Origin: Bacteroidota bacterium
Lineage (GTDB): Bacteria > Bacteroidota > Bacteroidia > Bacteroidales > UBA12481
NCBI GenBank assembly: GCA_018669475.1
Contig: JABHCC010000032.1
Span: 132,058-196,057 of the forward strand
Reading direction: 5' to 3'
Length of the DNA stretch: 64,000 bases
The notes beneath the pieces were generated by a model. That model ran no database searches. It was not told where the DNA came from and was given only the letters and a program-made list of their open reading frames with translations. The position numbers and the translations under genes were made by a program. Within the stretch, counting starts at the first letter, position 1; the number at the start of each line of letters is the position of its first letter. Shown here in pieces: positions 3,070-19,114 of the stretch.

Positions 3070-3711
3070 TTAGCTGAAACTCCTTTTTTCTTCGTCGTAT
3101 TTCTTTACGAAATATGCTACCTTCTCAATTGATGTAATCATATCATACTCTTCAAGATATACTGGGGGGGGCATATTGAGAGGTACGGTTGTAAAATTAA
3201 GTATGCCCTGTATGCCATTTGCAGCTAATAATTCAGCAATACTTTTTGCATGCTCAGGAGGAACTGTGAGGATACCAATACTAATTTTCAGCTTCTTTAT
3301 TATACTGACCAAATCATCTATATGATAGCACTTTACACCGCTTACAACCTTGCCTACCTTATCCTCATTTACATCAAAAGTTGCTACAATGTTAAGTTTC
3401 GATCGTTTACCTCTGAAATATCCAGTTACCGCTTTCCCGAAATTACCTACACCAATAACACCAACATTCAATCCGTTAGTAGTATCAATCAGGTTTCCAA
3501 TTGCACCGATTAGTTCTTTAATATTATAGCCTTTTCGTTGCATACTACTGAAGCCCATTAGCATCATATCCCTCCTCACCTGAACGGCTGTAATATGGTT
3601 TAAATTTGCCAGTTCATGACTGAATATATGTGTTTGACCTTTTGCAAGACAATCAAGCAAGATCCGGCGATACTCACTAAGCCGCGCAACTGTTTTTTCG
3701 GGGATACTCAT
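3070..3711 (-). CDS. rex: Redox-sensing transcriptional repressor Rex
   Basis: This 213-residue protein has the two Rex domains. The N-terminal winged helix spans ~1-80 (TVARLSEYRRIL, ITAVQVRRDMMLMG for DNA recognition). A Rossmann domain follows with GVGNFGKAVTGYF, which binds NAD(H); the C-terminal helix swaps in the dimer. Rex binds operators at low NADH/NAD+ and leaves when NADH rises. Here Rex-type palindromes lie before all four hydrogenase-related units at 11309-22721, so those are its likely local targets. It sits 41 bases after the receiver-kinase gene and may be the last cistron of that unit. An eight-C run (plus-strand G at 3164-3171) interrupts codons ~181-183 in frame. Confidence 0.95.
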   Translation of the reverse strand: MSIPEKTVARLSEYRRILLDCLAKGQTHIFSHELANLNHITAVQVRRDMMLMGFSSMQRKGYNIKELIGAIGNLIDTTNGLNVGVIGVGNFGKAVTGYFRGKRSKLNIVATFDVNEDKVGKVVSGVKCYHIDDLVSIIKKLKISIGILTVPPEHAKSIAELLAANGIQGILNFTTVPLNMPPPVYLEEYDMITSIEKVAYFVKKYDEEKRSFS

Positions 3712-3751: not shown

Positions 3752-4873
3752 TTATTGCACGGGTAAACTAATGCTGAATGTTGAACCAATATTCTCCTCG
3801 CTTTGCAGTTTAATTTGCCCATCATAATAATCCAGAATCTTCTTAACAATTGATAATCCCAGGCCACTTCCAGCAATATGACGGGTATTGGCATTTTTTA
3901 TCCTGACAAATTCCTGAAAGAGCTTTTCCTGATCATCCTCAGGGATGCCAATACCAGTATCCCGGATAAGGATATCAAAACTATCAGGTGATTTTTCTAG
4001 TCGACAAATCACTTTTCCGCCCGGTTTGTTATACTTTATAGCATTAGAAATTAGATTATTCAGAATAATCTCGATATCATCCTGGTCAAAAGGAACAATT
4101 AAATCTCCTGAGCAATGCAATTCCACTTTCACTTCCATTTGTATAGCAAGTGGGGATAAAGAATCAATCGAGTTATTTGCAATCTGAGCCATATCAAGTG
4201 GTCGGACTTCTCTGGCTTTTTTTCCTGATTCAATCTGAGTAAGATCAAGAAAATCCATAATCAACTTTCGCATTCCCTTTATCCTCTGCATGGCATTGTT
4301 CACCATGTCATCATAATTCTCCAGATTCTCCCCAGCCTGTCTTTCTTTTATGATATTAAGGTAACCCTCAACAGCATTCAATGGTGTTTTCAGTTCATGA
4401 CTCAGAATAGAAAGAAACTGGAAACGGATCTGCCGTCCTTCCCTGTTCATTTTCCTTGTCATTCTTTTGAGAAAGAGATGTTTGGTTATATTCTCTATCG
4501 AAGAGCGAAGTTCCCTTGGTGTGAAAGGCTTTGGCACAAAGTCATAAGCACCAATATTTGTCGCCTTAACAGCCAATTCGAGTGAGGCGAAAGAGGTAAT
4601 CATCATAACCTCAATATCCAACTGATGGTTATTTATATATTGCAATACCTCAATACCATCCATCCCGGGAAGTTTGTTATCAAGGAGAACAATATCAGGC
4701 TTATCCACTTTAAACATTTCAATCGCCTCTTCCCCTGAATTCACTTCAGTGACTGCATAAGCAATATCTTCGTCCATGAAAGGATATCCCACGACAAATC
4801 GTTCCAGGGCTCGGCTAATACCTGAGCGAATGCCAGGTTCATCATCTACTACAAGGACTTTTAATTGTACCAC
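3752..4873 (-). CDS. Receiver-histidine kinase hybrid (REC-HisKA-HATPase)
   Basis: This 373-residue soluble protein has an N-terminal receiver domain (~1-130; acidic DDEPG pocket and phospho-Asp in VLLDNKLPGMDG), a dimerisation/phosphoacceptor helix with SHELKTPLNAVEG near residue 165, and an ATPase domain with N box NNLISNAIKYN, G1 DTGIGIPEDD and G2 GSGLGLSIVKK. No membrane segment is present. The REC-before-kinase order suggests that it receives phosphate from another protein and relays or gates it. It follows the lone receiver gene by two bases and is in one unit with the hydrogenase-like kinase, so it is probably a downstream step of that signalling path. No DNA-binding domain is visible, so the final output is unknown. 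Confidence 0.9.
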   Translation of the reverse strand: MVQLKVLVVDDEPGIRSGISRALERFVVGYPFMDEDIAYAVTEVNSGEEAIEMFKVDKPDIVLLDNKLPGMDGIEVLQYINNHQLDIEVMMITSFASLELAVKATNIGAYDFVPKPFTPRELRSSIENITKHLFLKRMTRKMNREGRQIRFQFLSILSHELKTPLNAVEGYLNIIKERQAGENLENYDDMVNNAMQRIKGMRKLIMDFLDLTQIESGKKAREVRPLDMAQIANNSIDSLSPLAIQMEVKVELHCSGDLIVPFDQDDIEIILNNLISNAIKYNKPGGKVICRLEKSPDSFDILIRDTGIGIPEDDQEKLFQEFVRIKNANTRHIAGSGLGLSIVKKILDYYDGQIKLQSEENIGSTFSISLPVQ

Positions 4874-4875
4874 GA

Positions 4876-5259
4876 TTATAATTTAAGCAATTGTTCGATC
4901 CGGGCAAAAAGAGTTTCCTGATGTAGTCCCTTTTCGATATATTGGTCTGCATTAATCCATTGCTGGCTATCAGATGTTTGCAAGTCAAATGACAGTCCGG
5001 TCTCAGGTGTCACAGCTGTCAGTATTACTACAGGTACATCAGGATATTTATTCTTAAGCCCTCTGCTGAGAATGAATCCGGAATCCTCTGTTTCCATCAT
5101 CAGGTCAATGATAGCCAGATCAGGTTCACTATCCTCCAGCCATTCTTCTGCCAAAAATTGTGACTCAAGTGCTGTAACGGAATATCCCAGATTGCTCATT
5201 TGTAACTTCAACTGAAATAAACAATCCGCATCGTCATCCACAATTAAAATGTGCTTCAT
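4876..5259 (-). CDS. Single-domain response regulator
   Basis: This stand-alone receiver domain has 127 residues: acidic pocket IVDDDAD at the N terminus, phospho-acceptor Asp in LAIIDLMM (about residue 52), the switch Thr in VVILTAVTP, and an expected lysine near EKGLHQE. There is no output domain, so it must act by protein interaction or as a phosphate shuttle. It starts four bases after the hydrogenase-like histidine kinase and ends two bases before the REC-kinase hybrid. The order kinase, REC, REC-kinase suggests a phosphorelay. An insertion between the switch Thr and the lysine (GLSFDLQTSDSQQW) is somewhat longer than usual. Confidence 0.9.
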   Translation of the reverse strand: MKHILIVDDDADCLFQLKLQMSNLGYSVTALESQFLAEEWLEDSEPDLAIIDLMMETEDSGFILSRGLKNKYPDVPVVILTAVTPETGLSFDLQTSDSQQWINADQYIEKGLHQETLFARIEQLLKL

Positions 5260-5263
5260 TTGC

Positions 5264-7207
5264 TTAGTTATTTTTAGGTAAAAAAAGAATAAAACTGGTT
5301 CCTGTTTGTCCCTCAGCTGGAATATTATTTGATTTCACCTCTACTCTTCCCTTATGCATTTTCAAAATACCGTATGTAGTAGCAAGTCCAAGTCCTGTAC
5401 CTTTACCAAACTCCTTCGTGGTAAAGAAAGGAGTGAAAAGTTTATCCATATTTTCTTTACTGATTCCAGTTCCTGTATCCCTGATTGTGATTCTTATTTC
5501 ATCTTGCTCCAAATCAACTTTTACAGTCAGAACTCCACCATCTGACATTGCTTCCACAGCATTTCGATTAAGATTGGTAAAAACCTGCATCATTTGCTCG
5601 CGATCAAGTTCAGCAATGATTTCTTTCTCCTGATGAACAAGCTCAATACTAACCCCATCAGGTACTAAAACAGCATCAAGACTGTCAGACAGCAATTGTA
5701 TCACCTCAACCGGATCCTTCCTGACCTGATTCTTACGAGCAAAATTCAGGAGGTTTCCTACAATTCTTTTACACCGGTCGGCCTGAGTAACAATCATCTC
5801 AATATCCTTTCTCATAGGGCCATCAGGATAATCATCTGCCATTAGATTGGCATACATCATAACTACCCCAAGAGGATTATTCAGCTCATGGGCAATTCCA
5901 GCTGATAATTGTCCCAGATGGGCTAATTTCTCAGTTTGCTTCAGAGCCATTTGAGCATTTGCCAGTTTATCAATCATATGGGGCAAACACATATCTGTTT
6001 CAGCAAAACCCTGGGCAATTGCGATAGCATGGTTTCGGCAAGAGTCATAACCACACGCGCCGCAGTTCAGATGGTCCTTTTCTCCCAATTTGCCTATACT
6101 TTTCAATACCTCAATAATCCTATCTTCTTCGGGTACAGATAAGCAGCAATCATAAGGTGTAAAAACCCTGGACAAATCTATCTTCTTGTATTTCTGCATA
6201 TTAACCCCCCATTGATCAAGATCCAAAGAATCCATCTTCTCTCTCATATAATCACCAACACGCGATCGCCTGAGAAACCTCTTGCCTCCATCTGACATAC
6301 CCGGACCCATAATACAACCATCACAACAGAGTAATTCCATATTTTGATCTGCAATAGATCCATTTTCAAATTCAGCAATCGCTTCTGGAAAATTTGCACG
6401 CCCTTCAGCCACAACCATTTTCCCTTCGAATAGATCTTCAGGAATATTAAGAGTTTGAAGCAGTCCTCTCTTCACCGGAAAGATGCCCCCTTTACCAGCT
6501 ATTGGCGGGTCAAATTCTTTAGGCTTAACTGCATGAAAATCAATACCAGATTCTTCAATCATAGATCGCAGCTCGTGAAAAGTAATTCCTGCATCTATTT
6601 CATTTGATTCGGCTTTTTTCCCAATGCACGGACCGATAAAAACAATATGTGGATCTTTTCCGTATTTTTCCCTGACCACCCGGGTCATTGCCACCATAGG
6701 TGACACAATGGGTGCCAGCTTATTAACAAGTTTAGGATGATACTGCTCAACAAACTGTACTATTGAGGGACAATCTGAACTAATCATGGGCCCCTGCTCT
6801 GGATCAGACAATAATTTACTAAAGGCATGTGCTACCAAATCCGCCCCGAAACCAACCTCACAAACCCGATCAAAACCCAGCTCATACAAGATTCCAACAA
6901 GTACTTTATGGTCATCAAATTCGGTAAATTCTGCAGGAAAACTCGGAGCCAACAGGGCGATTATTGATACATCTGAGGCCAGAAATCCGCGTACCATGTC
7001 TTTTTCGAGCAAATAAGCCTTGGCACTCTGTGAGCAAACTTTCACACAGTTTCCACAAGCAATACAGCGCTCATGCATAACAGCTGCCTGGCCATTTTCT
7101 ATCCGAATAGCTTTTACAGGACATTCTCTAACACAAGTATAGCAAACCCGGCACCGATCTGGAATTGTAAATACGAGCTTTTCTCTTTTCTCTACTGCAC
7201 ACACCAT
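5264..7207 (-). CDS. Ferredoxin/[FeFe]-hydrogenase-like sensor histidine kinase
   Basis: This 647-residue fusion has, in order: two [4Fe-4S] ferredoxin motifs (~17-60; CRVCYTCVRECP and CIACGNCVKVC), a hydrogenase large-subunit-like domain (~75-310), a CxxCGxxxC Fe-S domain (~382-410; CGACGYDSC), and a histidine kinase (H box SAGIAHELNNPLG ~437, N box NLNRNAVEAM, G boxes DTGTGIS and GKGTGLGLATTYG). The hydrogenase loops are altered: SSDCPS where catalytic enzymes have TSCCP (the proton-relay Cys is Asp), GPCIGKKAES, and CCDGCIMGPGM replacing MACPGGCxxGGGQ. Cubane-type Cys ligands are largely kept. It resembles the putative sensory [FeFe] groups. H2 or redox sensing is inferred. Receiver partners follow immediately. 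Confidence 0.88.
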   Translation of the reverse strand: MVCAVEKREKLVFTIPDRCRVCYTCVRECPVKAIRIENGQAAVMHERCIACGNCVKVCSQSAKAYLLEKDMVRGFLASDVSIIALLAPSFPAEFTEFDDHKVLVGILYELGFDRVCEVGFGADLVAHAFSKLLSDPEQGPMISSDCPSIVQFVEQYHPKLVNKLAPIVSPMVAMTRVVREKYGKDPHIVFIGPCIGKKAESNEIDAGITFHELRSMIEESGIDFHAVKPKEFDPPIAGKGGIFPVKRGLLQTLNIPEDLFEGKMVVAEGRANFPEAIAEFENGSIADQNMELLCCDGCIMGPGMSDGGKRFLRRSRVGDYMREKMDSLDLDQWGVNMQKYKKIDLSRVFTPYDCCLSVPEEDRIIEVLKSIGKLGEKDHLNCGACGYDSCRNHAIAIAQGFAETDMCLPHMIDKLANAQMALKQTEKLAHLGQLSAGIAHELNNPLGVVMMYANLMADDYPDGPMRKDIEMIVTQADRCKRIVGNLLNFARKNQVRKDPVEVIQLLSDSLDAVLVPDGVSIELVHQEKEIIAELDREQMMQVFTNLNRNAVEAMSDGGVLTVKVDLEQDEIRITIRDTGTGISKENMDKLFTPFFTTKEFGKGTGLGLATTYGILKMHKGRVEVKSNNIPAEGQTGTSFILFLPKNN

Positions 7208-7210
7208 AAC

Positions 7211-8860
7211 TTAATCTTCCTTTGCTTTCAATTCCAAAACAGGCAATTTTTTTGAGACCTTAGATACCTCTGCATACAGTTGGCTAATTTGCCCTGACAA
7301 TTCACTGTCCTGATCATAAATCTCCTTGATACGTGGTTTATTGACTTTATCTGATTTGTTACCAGGCTGCCCTCCTCCGTTTATGCAGCCCCCAGGGCAT
7401 GCCATAATTTCAAACAATTCAGGATATTTTGATTGCATAGACTGATCAATCAAATTGATCCCTTCATCCAATGTTGAACAAGCTGTCCATTTCTGCTCAA
7501 TGGTATAATGCAACATTATATTTTTCTTGCAGGATTTTGGCCCTCTGAACTTTGCTTTGTTTCCGTCTAATGAATAATTGTCGGGGTCAACAACCGAGAT
7601 AGCTTTCATTAATCCTTCCATGTATCCGCCCGATAAGGAAGATAACAACCTGCTCATTGGAACAGAATTTAAAAGTGAATCCGGTACCTCATTATTGATT
7701 CGGTCAAAGTCAATGCCAAACAACTGGATTAGTTGAATTAATTCCCGGGTACTCATCACTGAATTCAAATATGGAATTCCCTCTTTTTGATGCTCTGCCT
7801 TCTGACTTTCCATCTTGGATCCAACACAAGGTGAAAAATAAACAATGTATGAATTTGTATTTATGTCTTTTATCAATCGGCCAAAGGTTTGGGCCGGACT
7901 TAAGACAGGTAATACACAAGACATCAGATCTGGACGGAGATTTTCAATATATTGCATCCATGATGGGCAAAAGGAAATCAACGAAGGTCCTGGTCCCTTG
8001 GTGGCAGTATGCTTCCAAAGCCTTGCAGCCTGGAACATTGTTATGTCAACAGATTCAGATCCGGAATGCACCTGATCAAATCCAATCTTTCTCAGAGCTG
8101 AAAAAAGCAGGCCTGAAACATCTTTTCCTGATCGAAAGCCTAATTCATCACCAATGGAAACCATAACCGCAGGGTCTACTAAAGCAATAACCTGCTGTTG
8201 CTTTTGATGCAGGTGACTTATCAGTTCGTCAAGATGTCCTTTTTCCTGCAAACTACCTGTCGGACAAACTCTGATACACTGTCCGCATGAGATGCAATCA
8301 CTAGAGCTCAAACCTTTGTCGCCGACAGTACCAACACGCATCTCTGTTCCACGACTTATAAACTCAAGGGCCGACACCCTCTGGTGATCACAAATTCTTA
8401 TACATCGACCACACAGAACACATTTTGAAGCATCATGGATGATAGATGGACTTGAGCGATCAATTTTCCTGGTAAATTGCCGTGTCCGCCCTTTCCTTTC
8501 CATAACATTGAGTTCGGTAGCAAGCTTCTGTAATTCACAATGCTTGTTTTGAAAACAATAAAGGCACTCATCCGGGTGATTTGAAATCAATAACTCAACA
8601 ATTGTCCTTCTGGCCTGAATAACTCGGGCCGAATGAGTATTCACCTTCATCCATTCCTCAACGGGATAACTACAAGCTGGAACAAGGTCTGCCATTCCCT
8701 CCACTTCGACAATACATAAACGGCATGCTCCGGTTGGAGGGAAGCCCTCCATACTGCACAAAGTAGGCACCCGAATACCATTTTGATTAAGAACACTCAA
8801 CAGAATATCGCCTTTTCGGGTTTTAAGTATTTGGCCGTTTACTTCAATCTCTATTTGCAT
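7211..8860 (-). CDS. Divergent HydA-like subunit with altered H-cluster loops
   Basis: About 549 residues with full HydA architecture: an N-terminal plant-type [2Fe-2S] domain (CSMEGFPPTGACRLC), a His-Cys [4Fe-4S] segment (HPDECLYC..KHCELQ), two [4Fe-4S] motifs (CVLCGRCIRIC, CISCGQCIRVCP), then the H-cluster domain. Loop 1 reads ISFCPSW where active enzymes have TSCCPxW, so the proton-relay Cys is Phe. Loop 2 reads SPCVGSKMES, with Ser at the lysine that normally anchors the diiron site. Loop 3 (MACPGGCINGGGQ) is intact. H2 turnover is therefore doubtful; electron transfer or sensing is possible. I start at 8860 because the longer frame would overlap the HydB-like gene; the gap is then ten bases. 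Confidence 0.85.
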   Translation of the reverse strand: MQIEIEVNGQILKTRKGDILLSVLNQNGIRVPTLCSMEGFPPTGACRLCIVEVEGMADLVPACSYPVEEWMKVNTHSARVIQARRTIVELLISNHPDECLYCFQNKHCELQKLATELNVMERKGRTRQFTRKIDRSSPSIIHDASKCVLCGRCIRICDHQRVSALEFISRGTEMRVGTVGDKGLSSSDCISCGQCIRVCPTGSLQEKGHLDELISHLHQKQQQVIALVDPAVMVSIGDELGFRSGKDVSGLLFSALRKIGFDQVHSGSESVDITMFQAARLWKHTATKGPGPSLISFCPSWMQYIENLRPDLMSCVLPVLSPAQTFGRLIKDINTNSYIVYFSPCVGSKMESQKAEHQKEGIPYLNSVMSTRELIQLIQLFGIDFDRINNEVPDSLLNSVPMSRLLSSLSGGYMEGLMKAISVVDPDNYSLDGNKAKFRGPKSCKKNIMLHYTIEQKWTACSTLDEGINLIDQSMQSKYPELFEIMACPGGCINGGGQPGNKSDKVNKPRIKEIYDQDSELSGQISQLYAEVSKVSKKLPVLELKAKED

Positions 8861-8870
8861 AGCTAAATTA

Positions 8871-10829
8871 TTACTGAATAAAGACCGCATTAAATTTGCA
8901 AACTTCATGGCATTTGCCACAGCCAGTACATCGGTCAGGAATGATTGCATGAACTTGCCGTGGTGATCCTATAATTGCTTGTTCAGGACATTTACTGAAA
9001 CAGACATAACAACCGTTGCATATTTCAGCATCAATAACAAATGATCTGAGATCCTGACAAACGCCAGCCGGACACACCCTGTTGAAGAGGTGTTCTTCAA
9101 ATTCTTCTCTGAAATGTTCCAGAGCACTAAGCAGTGGATTAGCTGCTCCTTTACCCAGGCCACATAATGATGTTTCACCTATAACCCTGGCCAGGTCATT
9201 GAGTTGTGTTACTCCTTTAAATCTATGTAAAGTATCATGTTCTTTATCCCTTTCAGGCCGACGTATAACCTTATCAAGGATTTCTGCCATCCGCCGAGTC
9301 CCTTCTCTGCAAGGTATACATTTGCCGCAGCTTTCTTTTTGAATGAACTTCATGAGGTGACTGATCAGATTTACTGAACATGAGCTCTCATCCAATAAGA
9401 CAAGGCTTCCTGATCCAAGAATCAGATTGCTTTTTTCAAAATCTTCGAAGTCGAGAGCAATATCAAAATTCTTACTACTTATGAACTTGCCAGATGGTCC
9501 TCCTGCCAATATGGCTTTGGCCTTCTTACAATTCTTCACTCCCTGGGCATTTAAGTCAGTAAGGTCTTTTAAAATATATCCAAAAGGAACCTCCACTACA
9601 CCATGCTTATTAAATCTTCCTGCCAGACTAAAAAGCTTTGTACCTGACGATTCTTCAGTTCCTACGCTTTTATACCATTGTGGTCCCTTATCGACTATTA
9701 GTGGAATTTGCGATAAGGTTTCTACATTATGCACCAGGGTAGGCATTCCAAATAATCCGGACTTAGCTGGATAGGGAGGTTTTGGCCTGGGCATACCGCG
9801 TTTTCCTTCAAGACTTGCAATAAGGGCAGTTTCTTCACCACAGACATATGCTCCGGGTCCTTTTCTGATTTTAATATCAAATGAAAAGCCACTTCCAAGA
9901 ATATCCTGACCGATCAATCCCAATTCTCTCACCTGATCAACGGCACATTCTAATCTATCAACCACATTGGAGTACCGTGATCGGGTATAAATAATTCCTT
10001 CACTGGCACCTATAGCATATGCGGCAAGCATTAGTCCTTCGATTGCTACATGTGGATTTCCTTCTAATAGCACCCTGTGCATATAAGCGCCAGGGTCACT
10101 TTCATCTGCATTACAAATCACATATCTTTTCCGGGCTGTAGTGGAGATGACTTTCTGCCATTTATCCGCTGCTGGATAGCCTGACCCTGATCTACCCCTG
10201 ACTGAACTGGCTTCTACCAGTTGAACAATTTCCTCATGAGTATAAAACCGGATACTCTTCACAAAAGCATTATAACCGCCCCATGCAATGTAATCCATCA
10301 CATCACATGGATCTATTATCCCATTGAGCCTTAAAACTCTTCTCTCCTGACCAGCAAAAAAGGGATGATCATGAAGATATGGAACACCTTCCCATTCAAT
10401 CTGTCCCCCGACATCCCATTGGCCAAGCAGGTTTTCTTCTGGTACAAAATGCTTCATTACAGCCTCCATCAGATGCGAAACCTGATAATCCTGTACCGGA
10501 CCAAAGAATAATCTGTTTCTGCCAGGCAATTGAATTCCAATTACTGGTTGTCCGCTTAAATAGCCCAGACCTCCTGTTAAAACAACATCCAGATGCAAGG
10601 CCTTGCTTTGCGCCCAGTCTTTAATAGCCTGAAGGGTTTGTACACTCCCGGCAGCTTTGGCACTATTACTGTCTTCAACAAACAGACAGGGGTGCTTGAT
10701 AATTGATCTCTTATGAAAAGCCAGCTCATTGAGAACTCCCTCATCTGTGTCATCCTTTAAACCCTTTGCCATGTAATCCAGAAGGCCCGGTAAAAGATCC
10801 TGACTTATTTGCTTTATATTCCCGTGCAT
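8871..10829 (-). CDS. HydB/NuoF-like subunit with a cysteine-less N-terminal domain
   Basis: This 652-residue flavoprotein-type subunit has an N-terminal thioredoxin-fold region (~1-160), an NuoF-like FMN/NADH core, the C-terminal [4Fe-4S] of NuoF (ESCGKCIPCREG...CGLG) and two ferredoxin motifs (CNGCYVCFSKCP, CTGCGKCHEVC). The N-terminal domain has lost its usual [2Fe-2S] ligands: VEDSNSAKAAG stands where VCxGTxC is expected, and TGGLGYLSG where TGCxGxC is expected. The flavin/NADH loop reads GRSGSGYPAADKW rather than GRGGAGFPTGxKW. It partners the HydC- and HydA-like genes on either side, with one base separating it from the HydC stop. It is probably a redox module that does not bifurcate normally. 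Confidence 0.88.
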   Translation of the reverse strand: MHGNIKQISQDLLPGLLDYMAKGLKDDTDEGVLNELAFHKRSIIKHPCLFVEDSNSAKAAGSVQTLQAIKDWAQSKALHLDVVLTGGLGYLSGQPVIGIQLPGRNRLFFGPVQDYQVSHLMEAVMKHFVPEENLLGQWDVGGQIEWEGVPYLHDHPFFAGQERRVLRLNGIIDPCDVMDYIAWGGYNAFVKSIRFYTHEEIVQLVEASSVRGRSGSGYPAADKWQKVISTTARKRYVICNADESDPGAYMHRVLLEGNPHVAIEGLMLAAYAIGASEGIIYTRSRYSNVVDRLECAVDQVRELGLIGQDILGSGFSFDIKIRKGPGAYVCGEETALIASLEGKRGMPRPKPPYPAKSGLFGMPTLVHNVETLSQIPLIVDKGPQWYKSVGTEESSGTKLFSLAGRFNKHGVVEVPFGYILKDLTDLNAQGVKNCKKAKAILAGGPSGKFISSKNFDIALDFEDFEKSNLILGSGSLVLLDESSCSVNLISHLMKFIQKESCGKCIPCREGTRRMAEILDKVIRRPERDKEHDTLHRFKGVTQLNDLARVIGETSLCGLGKGAANPLLSALEHFREEFEEHLFNRVCPAGVCQDLRSFVIDAEICNGCYVCFSKCPEQAIIGSPRQVHAIIPDRCTGCGKCHEVCKFNAVFIQ

Positions 10830-10830: not shown

Positions 10831-11289
10831 TCATGTGATCCTTAAATGATCCAATAATTCTGCCAGTTTTCGATTTGTCAATTGTCCGTGAAGAACTCCA
10901 TTCACTCCAAGAACAGGGGATAAGTGACATGCTCCTAAACATGGAACAAGTTCAAGGCTGAATGTGCGATCGATTGTCATCTCTCCATCGCCAATATCCA
11001 GAATACGACTTATCTCACGAAGAATTCCATCACTGCCTTCCAGATGACATCCAGTACCTGCACATACCTGCAAATGGTATTTGCCCCGACTTTCGAAATG
11101 AAACATGTTATAATAGGTAGCTACACTATATATCTTGACGGCAGGCAATTCCAAATGCTCAGACAAGTGAGGGATAGCCTCTTCCGGCAGGTACCCAAAT
11201 TCACTTTGAATATCCTGTAAAACCGGAATAAGATTCTCCCTGATCTTGCGAGGATATCTGTTTACTATTTTTTCAATGCCTGAATCCAT
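10831..11289 (-). CDS. HydC/NuoE-like [2Fe-2S] subunit
   Basis: About 152 residues with the NuoE thioredoxin fold. A helical N-terminal half (RKIRENLIPVLQDIQSEFGY, PEEAI) precedes the [2Fe-2S] site, and all four ligands are present (CAGTGC about 40 residues before CLGAC). It would pass electrons between the HydA- and HydB-like subunits. I prefer the ATG at 11289 because the longer GTG start at 11328 would place the Rex-type palindrome and the -7 box inside the gene. It is the first gene of the leftward divergent-hydrogenase/sensor unit. Promoter and operator lie directly upstream. Confidence 0.88.
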   Translation of the reverse strand: MDSGIEKIVNRYPRKIRENLIPVLQDIQSEFGYLPEEAIPHLSEHLELPAVKIYSVATYYNMFHFESRGKYHLQVCAGTGCHLEGSDGILREISRILDIGDGEMTIDRTFSLELVPCLGACHLSPVLGVNGVLHGQLTNRKLAELLDHLRIT

Positions 11290-11308
11290 ATTTGTTACAC
11301 TACTAACA

Positions 11309-11335
11309 TTGTTATTTAAATAACACACAAAAATA
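11309..11335 (-). promoter_or_regulatory. Rex-type operator next to a -7 box (HydC-like unit)
   Basis: TTGTTATTTAAATAACAC at 11309-11326 contains a perfect 16-bp palindrome and fits the Rex operator arms TTGTTA-N6-TAACAA with one mismatch. On the minus strand a TATTTTTG (11335 to 11328) fits the Bacteroidota -7 box and directly precedes it, so bound Rex would sit at the transcription start. Rex binding is inferred from the motif and the neighbouring rex gene. Confidence 0.7.
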
Positions 11336-11373: not shown

Positions 11374-11391
11374 TTGTTAAATTTGGAACAA
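11374..11391 (+). promoter_or_regulatory. Imperfect Rex-type operator overlapping a -7 box (rightward sensor unit)
   Basis: TTGTTAAATTTGGAACAA matches the Rex consensus TTGTTAANNNNTTAACAA at 12 of 14 fixed positions. It contains TAAATTTG (11378-11385), a fit to the -7 consensus, 17 bases before the ATG at 11402. The rightward unit would therefore also be under Rex. The right arm is weaker than at the other sites. Confidence 0.55.
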
Positions 11392-11401: not shown

Positions 11402-11659
11402 ATGAACCGGATTGAGATCAGCATATGTCTGGGAAGCTCATGTTTTGCACGAGGCAACCAGGTTATTGTTCATCAGATCAAAGAATATCTCAGAAAAAAC
11501 AACTTAGAGGATCGGATTTTTTTTAAAGGAGCTCATTGTTTCAATGCCTGTAAAAGCGGTCCTACTCTGAAGATCAACGAAGAATTTATATACGACATAA
11601 GTGAACTCAATGCAATTCAGCATATAATAAAAGCTTTGGAGGATCAAAATGCCGGGTAA
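11402..11659 (+). CDS. Small thioredoxin-fold [2Fe-2S] ferredoxin
   Basis: This 85-residue protein resembles the isolated C-terminal half of NuoE/HydC. All four cysteines of the thioredoxin-like ferredoxin fold are present: CLGSSC near residue 9 and CFNAC near residue 46, followed by KSGPTLKI. It lacks the helical half of NuoE. The last 11 bases overlap the next gene, the hydrogenase-like PAS protein, so the two are probably translated together and may interact. A role as electron donor or acceptor for that sensor is inferred from position. Confidence 0.85.
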   Translation: MNRIEISICLGSSCFARGNQVIVHQIKEYLRKNNLEDRIFFKGAHCFNACKSGPTLKINEEFIYDISELNAIQHIIKALEDQNAG

Positions 11660-13532
11660 AAGCATCCAGAACAGACTTCCAATCCTTACAGTAAATCCTG
11701 ATGACTGTGTTTTGTGCTATGCCTGTGTACGTGATTGTCCGGCCAGAGCAATCGAAGTTAAACCAAATGCTACTGCAGTAAGAATCATTACTGAAAAATG
11801 CACAGCATGTGGGAGCTGTTACACAGTATGTCCCACAGAAGCGATCAGCTATACATCTGATATCCTGAATGTTGAAAAATACTTGTCATCTGATGTGATT
11901 ACGGCGGCTATTATAGATCCGAGTATCTCTGGGGAATTTCCTGACATTACTGATTACAGAAACTTTGTCGGAATGATTAAGGCCCTGGGATTCAATTATG
12001 TCAACGACATGTCATTCGGAGTAGATCTTATTGCCCGTGAATATGCCCAGATCTTCAATGAATTCAAAGGAAAATATTTCATCTCATCTAAATGTCCGGC
12101 AGTAGTATATCAGGTGACAAAATACTACAACAGTTTAACTGACAATCTTGTACCCATATTATCTCCTCTGGCTGCTATGGCTGCAGTTGTAAGAAAAAAA
12201 TATGGACCCTCTGTTAAAGTCATAGCGATATCTCCTTGTCTGGCATCCAAATTAGAACAGCAGGAACAAAAGGATGAATCTAAAGTTGATACTCATATCA
12301 CCTTTACTGAACTAAGGCAGTTATTCTTAAAAAATGAAATAACAGAAACTAAAGTTGAATTTGAAGAATTTGATCCCCCATTTGGTCGTAAGGGAAGCCT
12401 GTTTCCTCTTACCAGCGGATTAATGCAAACTGCTGGTCAGAATGAGGACCTGCTCACCAGTAACTTTCACAGTTCATCCGGGAGGCATAACATGCTCGAT
12501 GCTATGAACGAATTCGTTCTATCAAATGACATACATAAACACCTGGATCTACTTTATTGTGAAGGTTGCATAATGGGTCCTGGAATGTCACCGGGTGGGC
12601 GTAAATTCATGCGTCAGACTCTAGTTAAAGACTATACCAGAAAAAGGTTAAAGGTGACTTCGGAGAGTGATTGGGAAAAGGAAATGGCAAATTACTCCGA
12701 CCTGGATCTAGGTCACTCATTCAGAGCCGACGACCAGCGCTTACCAACACCTCCGGCTCATAAAATTGAAGAAATTCTTCATTCGATTGGAAAAACGAGT
12801 AACGACAGGGTCGACAGGGGTTGCAGTGCATGCGGATATAGCAGCTGCAATGATTTCGCCACAGCCGTTGCTCATGGTCTGGCTAAAATAGAAATGTGTC
12901 ATTCATTCGGATCAAAAAACCGTCAGGACTATATTCAATCATTACAGGCAAGCAATGAACAGTTGGCAAAAACAAAGCAAGCCCTGGAAGAATCAGAAAA
13001 AACTGCCCGGGAAGAAAAACAAACTGTACAGGCCTTTTCTGACACCATTTCAGCTGTAATGCAGAGAATTCCTTCAGGAGTCATCATTGCTGATCTGAAT
13101 CTGAAAATCGTACAAGCAAATCAGGTTCTAATTGATATTCTTGGAGAGGAAGCTCAGAGTATTCATGAAGTAATTCCAGGATTGCAAGGAGCTGACATTA
13201 GCAGCTTATTACCTCCAAATATTTTCCAATTATTCAATTATGTAGTTCAAAACAATCAGAATCTGAGTAATAAGGATATTAAGCTGAACGAAAGAATACT
13301 GAACCTGTCTATCTTTCCTATCCAGCAGGGCAAAACTATTGGGGCTATCTTCCGTGACATGTCCTCTCCTGAAGTACAAAAAGAAGAAGTCCTGAAACGA
13401 GTAACTGATACTATTGACAACAATCTTCAAATGGTTCAGAAAATAGGATTCTTACTGGGAGAAGGAGCAGCTGAGACTGAGCGAATGCTAAATTCCATCA
13501 TCCAATCCTACCAATCCAAAGATGGCAAGTGA
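11649..13532 (+). CDS. Ferredoxin/[FeFe]-hydrogenase-like protein with C-terminal PAS domain
   Basis: This 627-residue paralogue of the hydrogenase-like kinase has two [4Fe-4S] motifs (CVLCYACVRDCP, CTACGSCYTVCP), a hydrogenase-like domain, a CxxCGxxxC Fe-S domain (CSACGYSSC, ~394), a short coiled segment (~430-460) and a PAS domain (~470-570; MQRIPSGVIIADLNLKIV). No kinase ATPase domain follows; the last ~40 residues are helical. Loop 1 is SSKCPA (Lys at the proton-relay position), loop 2 SPCLASKLE, loop 3 YCEGCIMGPGM. These changes argue for sensing rather than H2 catalysis. The stop overlaps the SpoIIE phosphatase start (GTGA), so output to that phosphatase is likely. It resembles sensory hydrogenase/PP2C gene pairs known from clostridia. 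Confidence 0.88.
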   Translation: MPGKSIQNRLPILTVNPDDCVLCYACVRDCPARAIEVKPNATAVRIITEKCTACGSCYTVCPTEAISYTSDILNVEKYLSSDVITAAIIDPSISGEFPDITDYRNFVGMIKALGFNYVNDMSFGVDLIAREYAQIFNEFKGKYFISSKCPAVVYQVTKYYNSLTDNLVPILSPLAAMAAVVRKKYGPSVKVIAISPCLASKLEQQEQKDESKVDTHITFTELRQLFLKNEITETKVEFEEFDPPFGRKGSLFPLTSGLMQTAGQNEDLLTSNFHSSSGRHNMLDAMNEFVLSNDIHKHLDLLYCEGCIMGPGMSPGGRKFMRQTLVKDYTRKRLKVTSESDWEKEMANYSDLDLGHSFRADDQRLPTPPAHKIEEILHSIGKTSNDRVDRGCSACGYSSCNDFATAVAHGLAKIEMCHSFGSKNRQDYIQSLQASNEQLAKTKQALEESEKTAREEKQTVQAFSDTISAVMQRIPSGVIIADLNLKIVQANQVLIDILGEEAQSIHEVIPGLQGADISSLLPPNIFQLFNYVVQNNQNLSNKDIKLNERILNLSIFPIQQGKTIGAIFRDMSSPEVQKEEVLKRVTDTIDNNLQMVQKIGFLLGEGAAETERMLNSIIQSYQSKDGK

Positions 13533-14716
13533 AAGAAGTTGACTTCCATATAGAGATCAAATGCGAACAAGTTAATCACAGTGGGGAACGGATCTGTGGT
13601 GATGTTTTCATGACTGAAAGGGTTAATGAAGAAGATCGTACAATAATCGTTCTATCTGACGGGATGGGCCATGGTGTAAAAGCCAACATGCTGGCAACAC
13701 TTACAGCAACAATGGCACTGAGTTTTACCCGGGAGCATAAGGAAGTAGAACGCATTGCAGAGATCATCATGAATACACTTCCTGTTTGTTCAGAAAGAAA
13801 AATGAGCTATTCCACTTTTACAATAATTGATATTATTCATGATGAAGAGGTGCAAATTCTTGAGTTTGACAATCCGGCAGCATTAATTCTGAGAGGGAAA
13901 AATGTGTTTCAGCCAGAATGGAAATGCATTATGTTGAGCTCAGAAAGAAATGCTGGTAAAGAAATTGTCACCTGTTCTTTCAAGCCTCAGAAAGAGGATA
14001 GAATAATTGTCTGCTCAGATGGCATTACTCAGTCCGGACTTGGCTCAGCAAAATATCCATTTGGCTGGGGCCGTGAAAAAATGGCCACAGAAGTTGAACA
14101 ACTCATTTACCGTGACCCAGCCATCTCTGCTGACACCATTGCTTCACGTTTGATAAATATTGCAGTGCAAAATGACGGTTATCTACCTAAGGATGATACA
14201 AGTTGTGCATCTGTATATTTCAGAGAGCCACGCAAACTAATGATTTGCAGTGGCCCACCTTACGAACAGGAGAAAGATATGAAACTGGCTGATTCTGTTA
14301 GAAACTTCAAGGGAAAGAAAGTCATTTGCGGGGCAACTACTGCTGATATTATCAGCCGGGAACTGGAACTACCTATCGAAGATAGTTTTGAGTTCCACGA
14401 CAAAGAGCTTCCCCCAATATCCTATATGGCATCAATTGATCTGGTAACAGAAGGGATTCTTACTTTGGGTAAGGTATCCCGTATACTTGAGAAACATAAT
14501 GACCAAACCCGATTAGGGAAAGGGCCTGCGGATGATATCATCCGCTTGATTCTTCAAACTGATGAAGTTCATTTCACTATCGGAACAAGAATAAATATAG
14601 CCCATCAGGATCCGAGCTTACCGGTGGAACTGGAAATCCGGAGGACAGTAATTAAGAGGATTGCCAGTATTCTCAAAAAAAAATTTCTCAAAGAAACACA
14701 CATTCAGTACATATAA
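13529..14716 (+). CDS. SpoIIE/PP2C-family serine phosphatase
   Basis: This 395-residue protein begins with GTG at 13529, overlapping the upstream stop by four bases. Residues ~5-235 form a SpoIIE/PP2C catalytic domain with metal-binding Asp residues in ICGDVFM, LSDGMGHG, VCSDGITQSG and PKDDTSCA. Residues ~235-395 form a separate C-terminal region starting at KLMICSGPPYE that also occurs downstream of PP2C domains in hydrogenase clusters, as far as I recall; its function is unknown. It is soluble. Being coupled to the hydrogenase/PAS gene, it probably dephosphorylates a partner in response to that sensor. No anti-sigma or STAS partner gene lies beside it. Confidence 0.88.
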   Translation: MKEVDFHIEIKCEQVNHSGERICGDVFMTERVNEEDRTIIVLSDGMGHGVKANMLATLTATMALSFTREHKEVERIAEIIMNTLPVCSERKMSYSTFTIIDIIHDEEVQILEFDNPAALILRGKNVFQPEWKCIMLSSERNAGKEIVTCSFKPQKEDRIIVCSDGITQSGLGSAKYPFGWGREKMATEVEQLIYRDPAISADTIASRLINIAVQNDGYLPKDDTSCASVYFREPRKLMICSGPPYEQEKDMKLADSVRNFKGKKVICGATTADIISRELELPIEDSFEFHDKELPPISYMASIDLVTEGILTLGKVSRILEKHNDQTRLGKGPADDIIRLILQTDEVHFTIGTRINIAHQDPSLPVELEIRRTVIKRIASILKKKFLKETHIQYI

Positions 14717-14769: not shown

Positions 14770-15255
14770 TTATGATAAATATTCAGCAAGAATCTCTTTG
14801 ACACCTTCAGGTGAAACACGGCCATAAGTTTTATCACCAACCAGCACTACTGGTGCTAAGCCACATGCTCCAACACATCTCAGGCAATTAAGCGAAAACT
14901 TACCATCAGATGTAGTTTCACCAACTTCAACCTTTAGTTCTTTTTTGAATTCATCCAGCACATTATCTGCTCCTCTTACGTAGCAGGCTGTACCCATGCA
15001 AATAGAAATTGGATGCTCCCCTCTCGGAACCATTGTGAAGAATGAATAAAATGTAACCACTCCATAAACCTTAGCCACTGAAACATTCATCTCTATGGCG
15101 ATAATCTCTTGTATCTCAGCTGGCAGATAGCCAAACATTTCCTGTGTTTTATGCAAGACATTAATTAACTCGTGTGGATTATTCTCAAATGATTTACAAA
15201 TATCCTTCAGGGCAATTACCTGATTCTCGTGCAATTCGACTTTTATCCTTGACAT
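14770..15255 (-). CDS. hndA: HndA/HydC [2Fe-2S] subunit of the tetrameric hydrogenase
   Basis: 161 residues, NuoE family. The helical N-terminal half includes NPHELINVLHKTQEMFGYLP. The [2Fe-2S] ligands are CMGTAC and CLRCVGAC. It carries electrons in an NAD(P)-linked [FeFe]-hydrogenase and is the last gene of the leftward hndB-hndC-hndD-hndA operon, 21 bases after hndD. Its end faces the convergent SpoIIE phosphatase gene with a 53-base gap holding no clear terminator hairpin. Confidence 0.93.
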   Translation of the reverse strand: MSRIKVELHENQVIALKDICKSFENNPHELINVLHKTQEMFGYLPAEIQEIIAIEMNVSVAKVYGVVTFYSFFTMVPRGEHPISICMGTACYVRGADNVLDEFKKELKVEVGETTSDGKFSLNCLRCVGACGLAPVVLVGDKTYGRVSPEGVKEILAEYLS

Positions 15256-15276
15256 GATCTTGTTCTTCTAAAATTA

Positions 15277-17055
15277 CTAGTCCTTTTTAATAACAATGTC
15301 AGACCCACTCCTATCAAAATAGTGAGTATGCAGGAGATGATGCGCCTTCTCGCTCATTGGTTTTCCCAGGAATTTATCATATAGCTCCTGAATGTACTTG
15401 TTCTCATGAGATTTTCTTATTGGTTTGGCACTATCTTCAGCATAAATTGCTTTTTGACGTGCAAGCAATATCGACGATTTACCATGATGAAGCGGCTGAC
15501 CACCTCCCCCTATACAACCACCTGGACAAGCCATGATTTCAATAGCATGAAATTCACAGCTCCCATCCTGAATAGACTCAAGGAGTTTTCGTGCATTACC
15601 AAGACCATGTGCAATTCCAATTTTTATTGGTAGTCCGTCGAAATCCAAAGTTGCCTGCCGAATTCCATCAAATCCCCTCAGCTCTTCAAAACTAATTCTT
15701 TCATGCTTTTTCTTTGTAAATAATTCATAGGCTGTTCGTGAAGCTGCTTCAATAACACCCCCTGTTGTACCAAATATAACACCAGCACCAGACGATTCGC
15801 CCATAGGCTGGTCAAAATCTGAATCTTCCAGTGAATCAAAATCGATATTTGCCTGTTTGATTAATGCTGCCAGTTCACGGGTTGAAATAGAATAATCCAC
15901 GTCCGGATTCCCATCTACTGAAAATTCATCGCGTTGACACTCATACTTCTTTGCCAGACAAGGCATGATTGACACCACTACCAAATCTTCGCGTTTTGTC
16001 TCAATCATATCAGCAAAATAGGTCTTTGCAATAGATCCGAACATTTGCTGTGGTGAGCGCGCTGTTGATGGTATATCCCTCATCTCAGGGAAATAATGTT
16101 CAAAGAAATTCACCCAGGCCGGACAGCAAGAAGTCAGTATTGGCAAGGCAACATTCTCTTCACCATTCAAATGACGTGTCAATCGATCGAGCAACTCTGT
16201 ACCTTCTTCCATGATTGTCAGGTCGGCAGCAAAGTCTGTATCGAAAACATAATCAAAACCTAATTGACGAAGAGCTGTAACCATTTTTCCTGTAACCAAA
16301 GTACCTGGCTCTTCGCCAAAAGACTCACCCAAAGCTGCCCTGACGGCCGGTGCTGTCTGGACGATAACTTTTTTTCTTGGATTTGCCAAGGCACGAATAA
16401 CTTGGTTGGTATGATCTACCTCGGTGAGAGCTCCGGTAGGACAAACAGCAACACATTGACCACAGAAAGTACAGGGGGATTTAACTAAATCCTGCTCAAA
16501 AGCTGGAGCTACAACAGCCTGAAACCCTCTGTGTACACCTGACAATGCGCCAACGGTTTGGAAATCATTACACATTGTCTCACAACGGCGACACATAATG
16601 CACTTATCCATCTCCCTGATTATGGAAGGTGAAAAATCTTCTTTGTAATGAGACTGCTCTCCCTGATAATGAATCTCTCTAACGCCCATATCCTGAGCCA
16701 TAGACTGTAAATCGCAATTTCCATTCTTGGCACAAACCAGACAATCAGAGGGATGGTCAGAAAGGATTAGTTCAAGAACTGTTTTCCTTGCATTCAGCAC
16801 TCTCATTGAGTTAGATTTCACAATCATCCCCTCAGCACAATTAGTAGCACAGGCAGGAGCAAGGTTTCGACGCCCCTCTACCTCAACTACACATATTCTG
16901 CAACCCCCAGGTTTATTCTCCACACCCAGATCATCCAGACCTAGATAACAAAGTGTTGGAATTTTGATTCCAACTTTACTAGCAGCTTTCAGTATGGTGG
17001 TTCCATTCTCAACCTTGACTGCTTTATTATCTATCGTTAGATTTATTAATTCCAT
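15277..17055 (-). CDS. hndD: Catalytic [FeFe]-hydrogenase subunit HndD/HydA (canonical H-cluster)
   Basis: About 592 residues: [2Fe-2S] domain (CRICVVEVEGRRNLAPAC), His-Cys [4Fe-4S] (HPSDCLVC..GNCDLQ), two [4Fe-4S] motifs (CIMCRRCETMC, CTFCGQCVAVCP), H-cluster domain and C-terminal small-subunit-like domain. All three H-cluster loops are canonical: TSCCPAW, MPCLAKKYE, MACPGGCIGGGGQP. This is the H2-producing or -oxidising site. I start at 17055 (MELINL) because the longer frame would run into hndC; the gap is then seven bases. Maturases HydE/F/G needed for H-cluster assembly are not in this window. Confidence 0.95.
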   Translation of the reverse strand: MELINLTIDNKAVKVENGTTILKAASKVGIKIPTLCYLGLDDLGVENKPGGCRICVVEVEGRRNLAPACATNCAEGMIVKSNSMRVLNARKTVLELILSDHPSDCLVCAKNGNCDLQSMAQDMGVREIHYQGEQSHYKEDFSPSIIREMDKCIMCRRCETMCNDFQTVGALSGVHRGFQAVVAPAFEQDLVKSPCTFCGQCVAVCPTGALTEVDHTNQVIRALANPRKKVIVQTAPAVRAALGESFGEEPGTLVTGKMVTALRQLGFDYVFDTDFAADLTIMEEGTELLDRLTRHLNGEENVALPILTSCCPAWVNFFEHYFPEMRDIPSTARSPQQMFGSIAKTYFADMIETKREDLVVVSIMPCLAKKYECQRDEFSVDGNPDVDYSISTRELAALIKQANIDFDSLEDSDFDQPMGESSGAGVIFGTTGGVIEAASRTAYELFTKKKHERISFEELRGFDGIRQATLDFDGLPIKIGIAHGLGNARKLLESIQDGSCEFHAIEIMACPGGCIGGGGQPLHHGKSSILLARQKAIYAEDSAKPIRKSHENKYIQELYDKFLGKPMSEKAHHLLHTHYFDRSGSDIVIKKD

Positions 17056-17062
17056 TTTCAAT

Positions 17063-18532
17063 TTATTTAACGCTGATTGCATTGAACTTACATTTTTCTT
17101 CACATGCTCCACATTTGATACAAATTGCAGTATCAATGCTATGAATCTCTTTCTTTTCTCCAGTAATTGCTCCAACCGGACAAACCCTTCCGCAAGCAGT
17201 ACATCCCACACAATTCTCAGGATCAATTACATAATTCATCAGATCTTTACACTGTCCTGAGGGACATCTCTTATCCGACAGGTGAGCAATGTATTCCTCA
17301 TGAAAATTGTCCATTGTGGATAAAATGGGATTCGGTGATGTTTGACCCAATCCGCATAAAGAGGTATCCTTTACCACCTCGCACAGATTTCTTAATCGAT
17401 CAAGATCTTCAAGCGATCCCTTCCCTTTTGTTATGGTATCGAGCATTTCGTAAAGGCGCTTATTGCCTATCCGGCAGGGGGAACATTTACCGCATGACTC
17501 TTCAACTGTGAAATCCAGATAAAATTTCGCCATGGAAACCATGCAATCATCCTCATCCATTACAATCATACCACCCGAACCCATCATTGATCCACTCTCA
17601 ATTAGATTATCATAATCAATAGGGATATCAAGATGTTTTTCAGTCAGGCACCCTCCGGATGGTCCTCCTGTTTGAACAGCCTTGAATTTCTTTCCGTCTA
17701 TGATTCCGCCGCCAATTTCAAAGATCACTTCCCTGAGAGTAGTTCCCATGGGGACTTCTATCAAACCTACATTATTGATTTTCCCTGCGAGAGCAAATAC
17801 TTTTGTGCCCTTTGATTTTCCAGTACCAATTGAATGAAACCAATCAGCACCTTTGAGATATATTACCGGGATATTAGCATATGACTCAACATTATTTACA
17901 TTGGTTGGCTTTCCCAGGAATCCCGATTCTGCAGGGAATGGGGGTTTGAAGGTTGGTTCACCACGCTCACCCTCCATCGAATGAATAAGAGCGGTTTCTT
18001 CACCACAAACAAAAGCTCCTGCTCCATAACGAAGTTCAATGTCAAAATCAAAACCTGATCCGAAGATATCTTTACCGAGAAGTCCATATTCCCGGGCCTG
18101 CCTGATCGCAATTTTCAATCTTTCAATTGCCAATGGATACTCGGCCCGGATATAGATCAATCCTTTTGATGCACCGATACAATATCCATTGATTGCCATT
18201 GCCTCCAAAACGGTATGGGGATCACCTTCGAGAATTGACCGATCCATAAAAGCACCAGGATCACCTTCATCAGCATTACAAACAACATATTTTTGATCAG
18301 CTTCATTCTTTGAAGCAATCTCCCACTTCAAACCTGTTGGAAATCCTCCTCCTCCTCTTCCTCTCAGACCTGATTCCTTCAATATTTCAATAGCCTCTGC
18401 AGGCTTCAACTCAACCAATACCTTAGCCAAGGCTGCATATGCATCTCTTGCAATAGCATCATCTATGCTTTCGGGATCGATAAATCCGCAATTACGCAGA
18501 GCAACTCTTAACTGCATTTTACTTTTCAACAT
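17063..18532 (-). CDS. hndC: HndC/HydB flavoprotein subunit with C-terminal ferredoxin domain
   Basis: 489 residues. An NuoF-like FMN/NADH core carries GRGGGGFPTGLKWE and NADEGDPGAFMDRS, followed by an SLBB region, a [4Fe-4S] site (ESCGKCSPCRIG...CGLG) and two C-terminal ferredoxin motifs (CVGCTACGRVCP, CIKCGACEEKC). The N-terminal [2Fe-2S] domain found in longer HydB proteins is supplied separately by the preceding HndB gene, two bases upstream. With HndB, HndD and HndA it has every module of the known NAD(H)/ferredoxin bifurcating hydrogenases; bifurcation itself is inferred. Confidence 0.94.
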   Translation of the reverse strand: MLKSKMQLRVALRNCGFIDPESIDDAIARDAYAALAKVLVELKPAEAIEILKESGLRGRGGGGFPTGLKWEIASKNEADQKYVVCNADEGDPGAFMDRSILEGDPHTVLEAMAINGYCIGASKGLIYIRAEYPLAIERLKIAIRQAREYGLLGKDIFGSGFDFDIELRYGAGAFVCGEETALIHSMEGERGEPTFKPPFPAESGFLGKPTNVNNVESYANIPVIYLKGADWFHSIGTGKSKGTKVFALAGKINNVGLIEVPMGTTLREVIFEIGGGIIDGKKFKAVQTGGPSGGCLTEKHLDIPIDYDNLIESGSMMGSGGMIVMDEDDCMVSMAKFYLDFTVEESCGKCSPCRIGNKRLYEMLDTITKGKGSLEDLDRLRNLCEVVKDTSLCGLGQTSPNPILSTMDNFHEEYIAHLSDKRCPSGQCKDLMNYVIDPENCVGCTACGRVCPVGAITGEKKEIHSIDTAICIKCGACEEKCKFNAISVK

Positions 18533-18534
18533 AA

Positions 18535-18939
18535 CTAGTCCTCCTCATTATCTATAGTTCGATAGCCTACCGGAATAATTCCATCAACCTGCTCCTGTCT
18601 GCGAATGTATCTTTCGATTATCTCATCCGCCTTTTGAATATCAACATATCCAAAAACCACCGGTTCATCACCAGGAACATGAACCTCAATCGTTGGCTCT
18701 GCATAGCAATATCCCATGCAACCAGTCTGGGTAACAAGAGCTTCAATCCGACGTTTCTCCAATTCATCACTGAAGAAATTCATTACATCTCTTGCTCCGG
18801 ATGCAATACCACAGGTTGCCATTGCGACTTTAACCTGCACCACAGACTGATTATGATCGCGGGTTTCACGGATTTTATTCCTGCTTTGCAGACTTTCCCG
18901 CCTTGCTTTTAATTCACTTAATGAATTGACCTTTGTCAT
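18535..18939 (-). CDS. hndB: HndB-like thioredoxin-fold [2Fe-2S] subunit
   Basis: 134 residues. A charged helical N-terminus (~1-35) is followed by a thioredoxin-like ferredoxin domain with ligands ATCGIASGA and TQTGCMGYCYAEP, giving three clear cysteines in the expected places; the second position of the first pair is Ala/Ser-rich, as is common in the HndB group. It corresponds to the N-terminal domain of longer HydB subunits encoded as a separate gene. It is the first gene of the hndBCDA operon. Rex-type sites lie 93-127 bases upstream. Confidence 0.88.
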   Translation of the reverse strand: MTKVNSLSELKARRESLQSRNKIRETRDHNQSVVQVKVAMATCGIASGARDVMNFFSDELEKRRIEALVTQTGCMGYCYAEPTIEVHVPGDEPVVFGYVDIQKADEIIERYIRRQEQVDGIIPVGYRTIDNEED

Positions 18940-19031
18940 GTTCCTTGAAATTTATAATTCAGTTATCTGATCCGCATAACACCTGCCCGAAGGCTAATCC
19001 TATGACCCAAATACACTTAAACTTCTATATT

Positions 19032-19073
19032 TTGTTATTACTATAACAGTGTTATTATTTTAACGCAAAAGTA
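19032..19073 (-). promoter_or_regulatory. Tandem Rex-type operators and -7 box upstream of hndBCDA
   Basis: Two overlapping inverted repeats are present: TTGTTATTACTATAACAG at 19032-19049 (TGTTA-N6-TAACA, perfect arms) and GTGTTATTATTTTAACGC at 19049-19066 (one mismatch). On the minus strand TACTTTTG (19073 to 19066) is a full -7 match, and TGTG lies 19 bases further upstream as a near -33 box. Bound Rex would block the start region. Rex binding is inferred from motif and context. Confidence 0.7.
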
Positions 19074-19114
19074 CAGTTCAAATCAACAGTAGCACATGAT
19101 TTTTGTTAGTTTTT

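Follow-up and report, generated by a model that had tools for sequence, protein, structure and literature searches.

Proteins that fuse the H-domain of [FeFe]-hydrogenases to a histidine kinase have already been described, as the kinase type of BfuT and as HydDB class C1, labelled 'histidine kinase-linked (putative)' (PMC5037454). BfuT is encoded beside bfuABC in Hydrogenedentota, Calditrichota (Caldithrix) and three Bacteroidota, in some cases with a histidine kinase domain. In the Bacteroidota, with Tenuifilum and Williamwhitmania named as examples, bfuT is present twice, once ahead of bfuC and once after bfuA; no receiver or response regulator is named in the main text of the study (PMC11406978, mSystems 2024). 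Here, we analysed a stretch of 64,000 nucleotides (the window) from contig JABHCC010000032.1 (GCA_018669475.1; Bacteroidales, UBA12481), spanning positions 132,058-196,057 of the forward strand, in which a fusion protein of 647 amino acids, given the working name HK-hyd, is encoded at 5264-7207 on the minus strand. We lean towards reading HK-hyd as a sensor of cytosolic electron supply (redox), and perhaps of H2 in those relatives that possess maturases, which would feed a receiver/receiver-kinase relay encoded beside the repressor Rex.

The BfuT kinase type (group C3, BfuABC sub-type V; PMC11406978) resembles HK-hyd in combining an H-domain with a histidine kinase beside bfuA, and the two-bfuT layout of Bacteroidota in that study is the layout of the window; compared by description and not by sequences, what is added here are the receivers, the receiver-kinase and the genomes without maturases. 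TmHydS of Thermotoga maritima (group C, M2f; PMC10055695) shares with HK-hyd the series of two [4Fe-4S] clusters, H-domain and C-terminal [4Fe-4S] cluster, and in both proteins C299 and M353 are replaced (by Ala and Gly in TmHydS), but TmHydS ends in a PAS domain whereas HK-hyd ends in HisKA-HATPase. The Cx2Cx4Cx16C C-terminal motif is common to HK-hyd and TamHydS of Thermoanaerobacter mathranii (group D, M2e; PMC8163306), and TamHydS likewise has a bifurcating HydABC and a histidine kinase-like ATPase, the latter as a separate protein, encoded in its vicinity; it differs in carrying no fused kinase and in having Ser rather than Gly at the M353 position. Like HK-hyd, the PAS-type proteins RaHydS and TsHfsB, whose partners are Ser/Thr kinases or phosphatases (PMC5707799), represent sensory hydrogenases within a hydrogenase operon, although their output has been proposed to run via PAS and Ser/Thr signalling, unlike the His-Asp chemistry of HK-hyd. 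The regulatory [NiFe]-hydrogenase HoxBCJA is analogous in that a hydrogenase-type sensor feeds a histidine kinase (PMC5707799); its metal centre, however, is unrelated, its kinase is a separate subunit and its HoxA regulator acts directly on transcription.

HK-hyd, its domains and the two genes that follow it were annotated as below.

5264..7207, minus strand: HK-hyd, fusion of ferredoxin, H-domain, Fe-S domain and histidine kinase, 647 amino acids (open reading frame, Pfam, AlphaFold2 model, Foldseek)
7025..7165, minus strand: two [4Fe-4S] ferredoxin motifs, residues 15-61 (C19, C22, C25, C29; C48, C51, C54, C58; Pfam Fer4)
6302..6964, minus strand: [FeFe]-hydrogenase H-domain, residues 82-302, with L1 SSDC146P, L2 GPC194xxK197xxE200 and L3 C295xGC298 (Fe_hyd_lg_C PF02906, 8e-45)
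5981..6070, minus strand: C-terminal [4Fe-4S] domain, residues 380-409, Cx2Cx4Cx16C formed by C382, C385, C390 and C407 (PF04060, 1e-8)
5729..5917, minus strand: HisKA dimerisation/phosphoacceptor domain, residues 431-493, H440 (PF00512, 5e-14)
5270..5605, minus strand: HATPase_c catalytic domain, residues 535-646, with N545, D577 and G579 (PF02518, 2e-23)
4876..5259, minus strand: single-domain receiver (REC), 127 amino acids, acidic pocket D8-D10, phosphoacceptor D52 (Response_reg PF00072, 7e-15)
3752..4873, minus strand: receiver-histidine kinase (RECHK), 373 amino acids, H159 (Response_reg 6e-27, HisKA 8e-14, HATPase_c 3e-27)

An earlier note, made from the letters of the sequence, had read this protein as a fusion of a two-cluster ferredoxin, an [FeFe]-hydrogenase-like domain with loop changes, an Fe-S domain and a histidine kinase. 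Pfam agreed, as did an AlphaFold2 model (predicted local distance difference test, pLDDT, 74) whose best Foldseek matches in the PDB were T. kivui HydA (8a6t_A, E 4e-19) and the kinase ZraS (9jfj, 2e-18). The direct fusion of H-domain to kinase that the note had drawn attention to is real, but it is not new, given BfuT (PMC11406978) and HydDB C1 (PMC5037454).

Residue conservation was counted over 118 distinct orthologue sequences. The eight ferredoxin Cys and C382, C385, C390 and C407 of the C-terminal motif were present in 118/118, and C146 (L1), C194, K197 and E200 (L2), and C295 and C298 (L3) of the H-domain were invariant, such that the four Cys ligands of [4Fe-4S]H are kept, the correspondence to CpI being inferred from sequence. 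The loop changes were equally consistent: the equivalent of the proton-relay C299 (position 145) was D, P, A, S or N, and Cys in none of the 118, whilst the M353 equivalent (position 192) was Gly in every one. L3 reads CxGC, one residue short of the CpI CxxxC, and C294, the residue that would preserve the CpI spacing, was unconserved. K358 of CpI touches the 2Fe ligands, and its equivalent in HK-hyd is K197. In the kinase, H440, N545, D577, G579 and G605 were invariant, giving the hallmarks of the HisKA type. By its motifs HK-hyd matches the group C sensory hydrogenases (PMC8163306; PMC10055695). Because a Pfam scan of the protein detected no PAS domain and HisKA-HATPase stands in its place, as in kinase-type BfuT, we assign it to the kinase variant and do not class it as M2f.

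Orthologues sharing this domain arrangement occurred in 22 of the 60 Bacteroidales genomes sampled (our own included), in 26 of 394 further genomes sampled across the phylum (our own not counted) and on at least 80 Bacteroidota contigs. Downstream, the two following genes form a conserved, obligate receiver pair, newly described here: the order HK-hyd, REC, RECHK was found in 70/70 of the loci with at least 2 kilobases (kb) of sequence beyond HK-hyd (of 80 loci), the remainder being contig ends, five of which nonetheless show both REC and RECHK. The phosphoacceptors were conserved throughout, D52 of REC in 116/116 and H159 of RECHK in 111/111. HydC, HydB and HydA precede the trio, and the six-gene order also holds in the majority of the distant families (~41% identity). 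All three genes lie on the same strand, separated by gaps of 4 base pairs (bp) between HK-hyd and REC and 2 bp between REC and RECHK, and Pfam detected no DNA-binding domain in RECHK or elsewhere among them. The lone receiver and the receiver-kinase without DNA-binding output are thus as the earlier note had described, and the three genes stay linked in relatives, with one exception (G046); the 'built-in' phosphorelay of its heading does not hold, as the receivers are separate genes.

Two loci were distinctive in their composition. In the HydG-positive genome G046 (L285 9903-11894), the HK-hyd orthologue was solitary: the 19.6 kb inspected contained neither receivers nor HydABC. The closed genome G183 (L272 3076-12738), which lacks detectable HydG and HydF, carried two sets of HydABC and, beside the kinase trio, one more lone receiver.

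The genetic determinants for building an H-cluster were distributed differently from the sensor. Profile searches of the window's genome did not recover HydG (best hit 19 bits, cut-off 312), HydF (84, cut-off 326) or HydE (32, cut-off 255), and none of the three turned up in the 11 further family genomes; seven of these 12 genomes are at least 90% complete with no more than 5% contamination. The same search placed HydG above the cut-off in 22/60 Bacteroidales relatives, and T. maritima, used as a control, exceeded the HydF and HydG cut-offs. Among 40 relatives with PF02906 genes, 19 had no HydG above the cut-off, 14 of which (our own included) were 91-100% complete. Across the phylum sample, where the maturase survey covered HydG and HydF, HydG was present in 15 of the 26 kinase-bearing genomes (our own excluded) and not detected in 11. 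HydF exceeded its cut-off in the 15 HydG-positive genomes plus G191 and G353 and was not found in nine, including the closed G183, in agreement with HydG (Fisher p 2e-5). In the single-contig genomes G191 and G353 (L270, L271) HydG was not found, although the cluster still holds a HydF-like gene, scoring 428 and 350 bits.

When mapped by parsimony onto a tree built from 44 HK-hyd proteins, the presence of HydG changed seven times, at least four of these changes being forced by well-supported branches, and we infer that loss is likelier than repeated gain. HydG-positive and HydG-negative genomes were compared for the residues of the H-domain pocket, and no difference was found. This repeated persistence of HK-hyd in genomes without maturases is, like the receiver pair, new here. 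A decaying relic, a sensor on its way out after the lineage lost H2 metabolism, would suit the repeated changes in HydG status and the degeneration of the neighbouring HydA in several lineages; it is highly improbable, however, since HydG-negative genomes keep all the ligands, the phosphoacceptors and the gene order, and do so across no fewer than four independent changes, and the HK-hyd copy of the window is an intact reading frame.

The same distribution bears on the nature of the signal, which the earlier note had left as H2, CO or redox; H2 and CO become doubtful in this organism, as HydE, HydF and HydG were not found in its genome or family. An H2 sensor proper would hold a complete H-cluster, its kinase answering H2 and regulating the neighbouring HydABC in a role like that proposed for T. 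maritima HydS. With all Cys ligands and the K358 equivalent conserved, with HydG in 15/26 kinase-bearing phylum genomes and one type of cluster in which the trio is directly followed by HydG and HydF, and with group C and D enzymes of similar changes accepting the 2Fe subsite and turning over H2 (PMC10055695; PMC8163306), the proposal has substance. We nevertheless consider it rather unlikely, given the maturases missing from the window's genome and family, the degenerate HydA next door and the nine kinase-bearing phylum genomes without both HydG and HydF. Instead, we hold it most likely that the H-domain in the window's organism carries only its [4Fe-4S] cluster and that what the kinase reads is redox state or the supply of electrons, because the known route cannot make the 2Fe subsite in this family; in relatives with HydEFG, H2 may be the input.

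The surroundings of the trio comprise the following features.

3070..3711, minus strand: Rex, NADH/NAD+-sensing repressor (NCBIfam NF003995, 189 bits against a cut-off of 126)
7211..8950, minus strand: HydA-like subunit with degenerate H-cluster loops, L1 ISFCPSW and L2 SPCVGSK (Pfam, motif reading)
8871..10829, minus strand: HydB-like (NuoF plus ferredoxin) subunit (TIGR01959, 1.7e-126)
10831..11328, minus strand: HydC-like (NuoE) subunit, heading the operon (TIGR01958, 1.5e-40)
11374..11391, no strand assigned: Rex-operator-like palindrome TTGTTAAATTTGGAACAA (TTGTT-N8-AACAA) in the divergent promoter (motif form from PMC5886521)
11402..11659, plus strand: NuoE-type ferredoxin, 85 amino acids, divergent operon (PF01257, 9e-9)
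11649..13532, plus strand: paralogous sensory hydrogenase, 627 amino acids, without kinase domain, L3 YCEGC (Pfam; ~35% identical to HK-hyd)
13529..14716, plus strand: putative SpoIIE/PP2C-type phosphatase (assigned by sequence), partner gene of the paralogous sensor (position conserved in relatives)

All five PF02906 genes of the genome lie inside the window. The HydA beside HK-hyd has lost the equivalents of C299 (to F), M353 (to S) and K358 (to S), whilst in many relatives the HydA neighbour retains TSCCPGW and MPCTAKKFE. Because a conserved sensor adjoins a degenerating enzyme, sensor function is suggested by these sequences to be independent of the hydrogenase activity of the neighbouring HydA. 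The HydA neighbours of several lineages have likewise changed more than once where C299 and K358 would stand, K358 having become M (L066, L098, L100, L105-L109, L113 and L115). A rule by which the HydA neighbour always degenerates upon HydG loss was rejected, as it is canonical without HydG in another class of the phylum, and TSCSPGW was rejected as a broken L1 or sign of inactivity, since A. woodii HydA1 (7q4v) has the same motif.

The adjacency of HydA and HK-hyd, near universal among the loci examined and with a gap of 3 bp in the window, is what would be expected if the H-domain were a structural adaptor that docks HK-hyd on HydABC as a fourth subunit, the kinase then reading complex assembly or electron flow rather than free carriers. 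This we judge improbable, as at least five genomes (G215, G243, G275, G322 and G432, five of the nine without HydG and HydF) retain HK-hyd, REC and RECHK with no HydABC directly upstream, although at least four of these hold another HydABC set further on.

The missing DNA-binding regulator that the earlier note had proposed to look for is indeed not encoded among the three genes, but Rex begins 40 bp beyond RECHK on the same strand, and operator-like sites precede the HydC operon. For 61 loci the sequence continued for 4.5 kb or more past the kinase, and in 37 of these Rex was found just downstream. In 12 other loci of the 61, a NarL-type response regulator, assigned by its LuxR-like C-terminus, was near by, never together with Rex. 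The PAS-type paralogue of the divergent operon, which in the window (11649-13532) resembles the RaHydS/TsHfsB kind, co-occurred with Rex in 33/35 loci with room, and the NarL type appeared only where the paralogue was missing. A TTGTT-N8-AACAA palindrome (no more than two mismatches), the form used for Rex of thermoanaerobes (clostridial) (PMC5886521), stood upstream of HydC in 30/37 Rex loci compared to 4/32 others (Fisher p 8e-9); 27 of the 37 Rex loci had palindromes at or below the 5% level of shuffles, and three of the four operator-bearing loci without Rex were contigs ending before its position. The window has two such sites: one occupies 11374-11391, within the divergent promoter, and the other, at 22678-22695, precedes the third HydC by 38 bp. 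Used by itself as a Rex box, the consensus TTGTGA-N6-TCACAA was no commoner in the window (four matches) than in shuffles (5.5 expected). A Rex site has likewise been predicted upstream of hfsABCD for TsHfsB (PMC5886521), and Rex next to a HydABC cluster is also recorded for Caldithrix (PMC5317091).

The link to Rex in Bacteroidales, as read from gene neighbourhood and putative operators, is new here. Rex is not known to undergo phosphorylation, and for this reason it would explain transcriptional control of the cluster and not the output of the relay.

Other regulators also occur at these loci. Next to the 22678-22695 site in the window lies the gene of a membrane histidine kinase of 703 amino acids (22791-24902). 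A second cluster type (L061 1281-4159; L088 2076-4824; L075 2344-5098) has neither Rex nor the PAS-type paralogue; upstream it carries a membrane kinase and a NarL-type DNA-binding response regulator, with HydG and HydF following the trio in L061 and L088.

As an electron-supply sensor, HK-hyd would be a soluble cytosolic kinase whose input is an Fe-S wire derived from [FeFe]-hydrogenase. Electrons would arrive from the upstream HydABC-type complex, from ferredoxin or NADH directly, or from H2 where an H-cluster can be built, and would alter how the ferredoxin clusters and the [4Fe-4S] clusters of the H-domain and the C-terminal domain are charged. That charge state would set autophosphorylation of H440, from which phosphate would pass to D52 of the lone receiver, the receiver of RECHK or both. 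The two kinases would converge on the single-domain receiver, which would signal by protein contact, and Rex (NADH/NAD+) would set transcription of the cluster in parallel.

Several observations weigh against this proposal. K197 and the whole 2Fe pocket are conserved without maturases, so a 2Fe subsite could still be needed and obtained otherwise. The window also holds two further HydABC sets (14770-22640) with canonical H-cluster motifs (TSCCPAW; TSCSPGW with CKSPQ), and canonical HydA motifs in a maturase-less genome mean that missing HydE, HydF and HydG may not equate to missing H-clusters; because pocket lysine and canonical HydA motifs persist together without maturases, a maturation route of another kind is possible. 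The window's genome is itself incomplete (95%), though the 11 family genomes agree. Finally, inter-protein mutual information between the dimerisation and histidine phosphotransfer (DHp) helices of the two kinases and the two receivers gave no interface enrichment (p 0.36-0.67, effective number of sequences, Neff, 91), and residue covariation could not tell which receiver partners HK-hyd.

More broadly, and somewhat short of probable, the [FeFe]-hydrogenase fold may several times independently have become a sensor without the organometallic 2Fe subsite, the bare [4Fe-4S] H-domain acting as redox gate of the fused kinase in genomes no longer able to make an H-cluster. It is mainly by their domains, rather than by a demonstrated mode of signalling, that sensory [FeFe]-hydrogenases have come to be called H2 sensors. 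In HK-hyd, sensor and kinase form one protein and the receivers are the next two genes, which makes signal, kinase and output assayable with three proteins. Ultimately, the natural split in HydE, HydF and HydG among kinase-bearing genomes whose pockets are equal turns the choice between H2 and redox into a question testable with matched orthologues.

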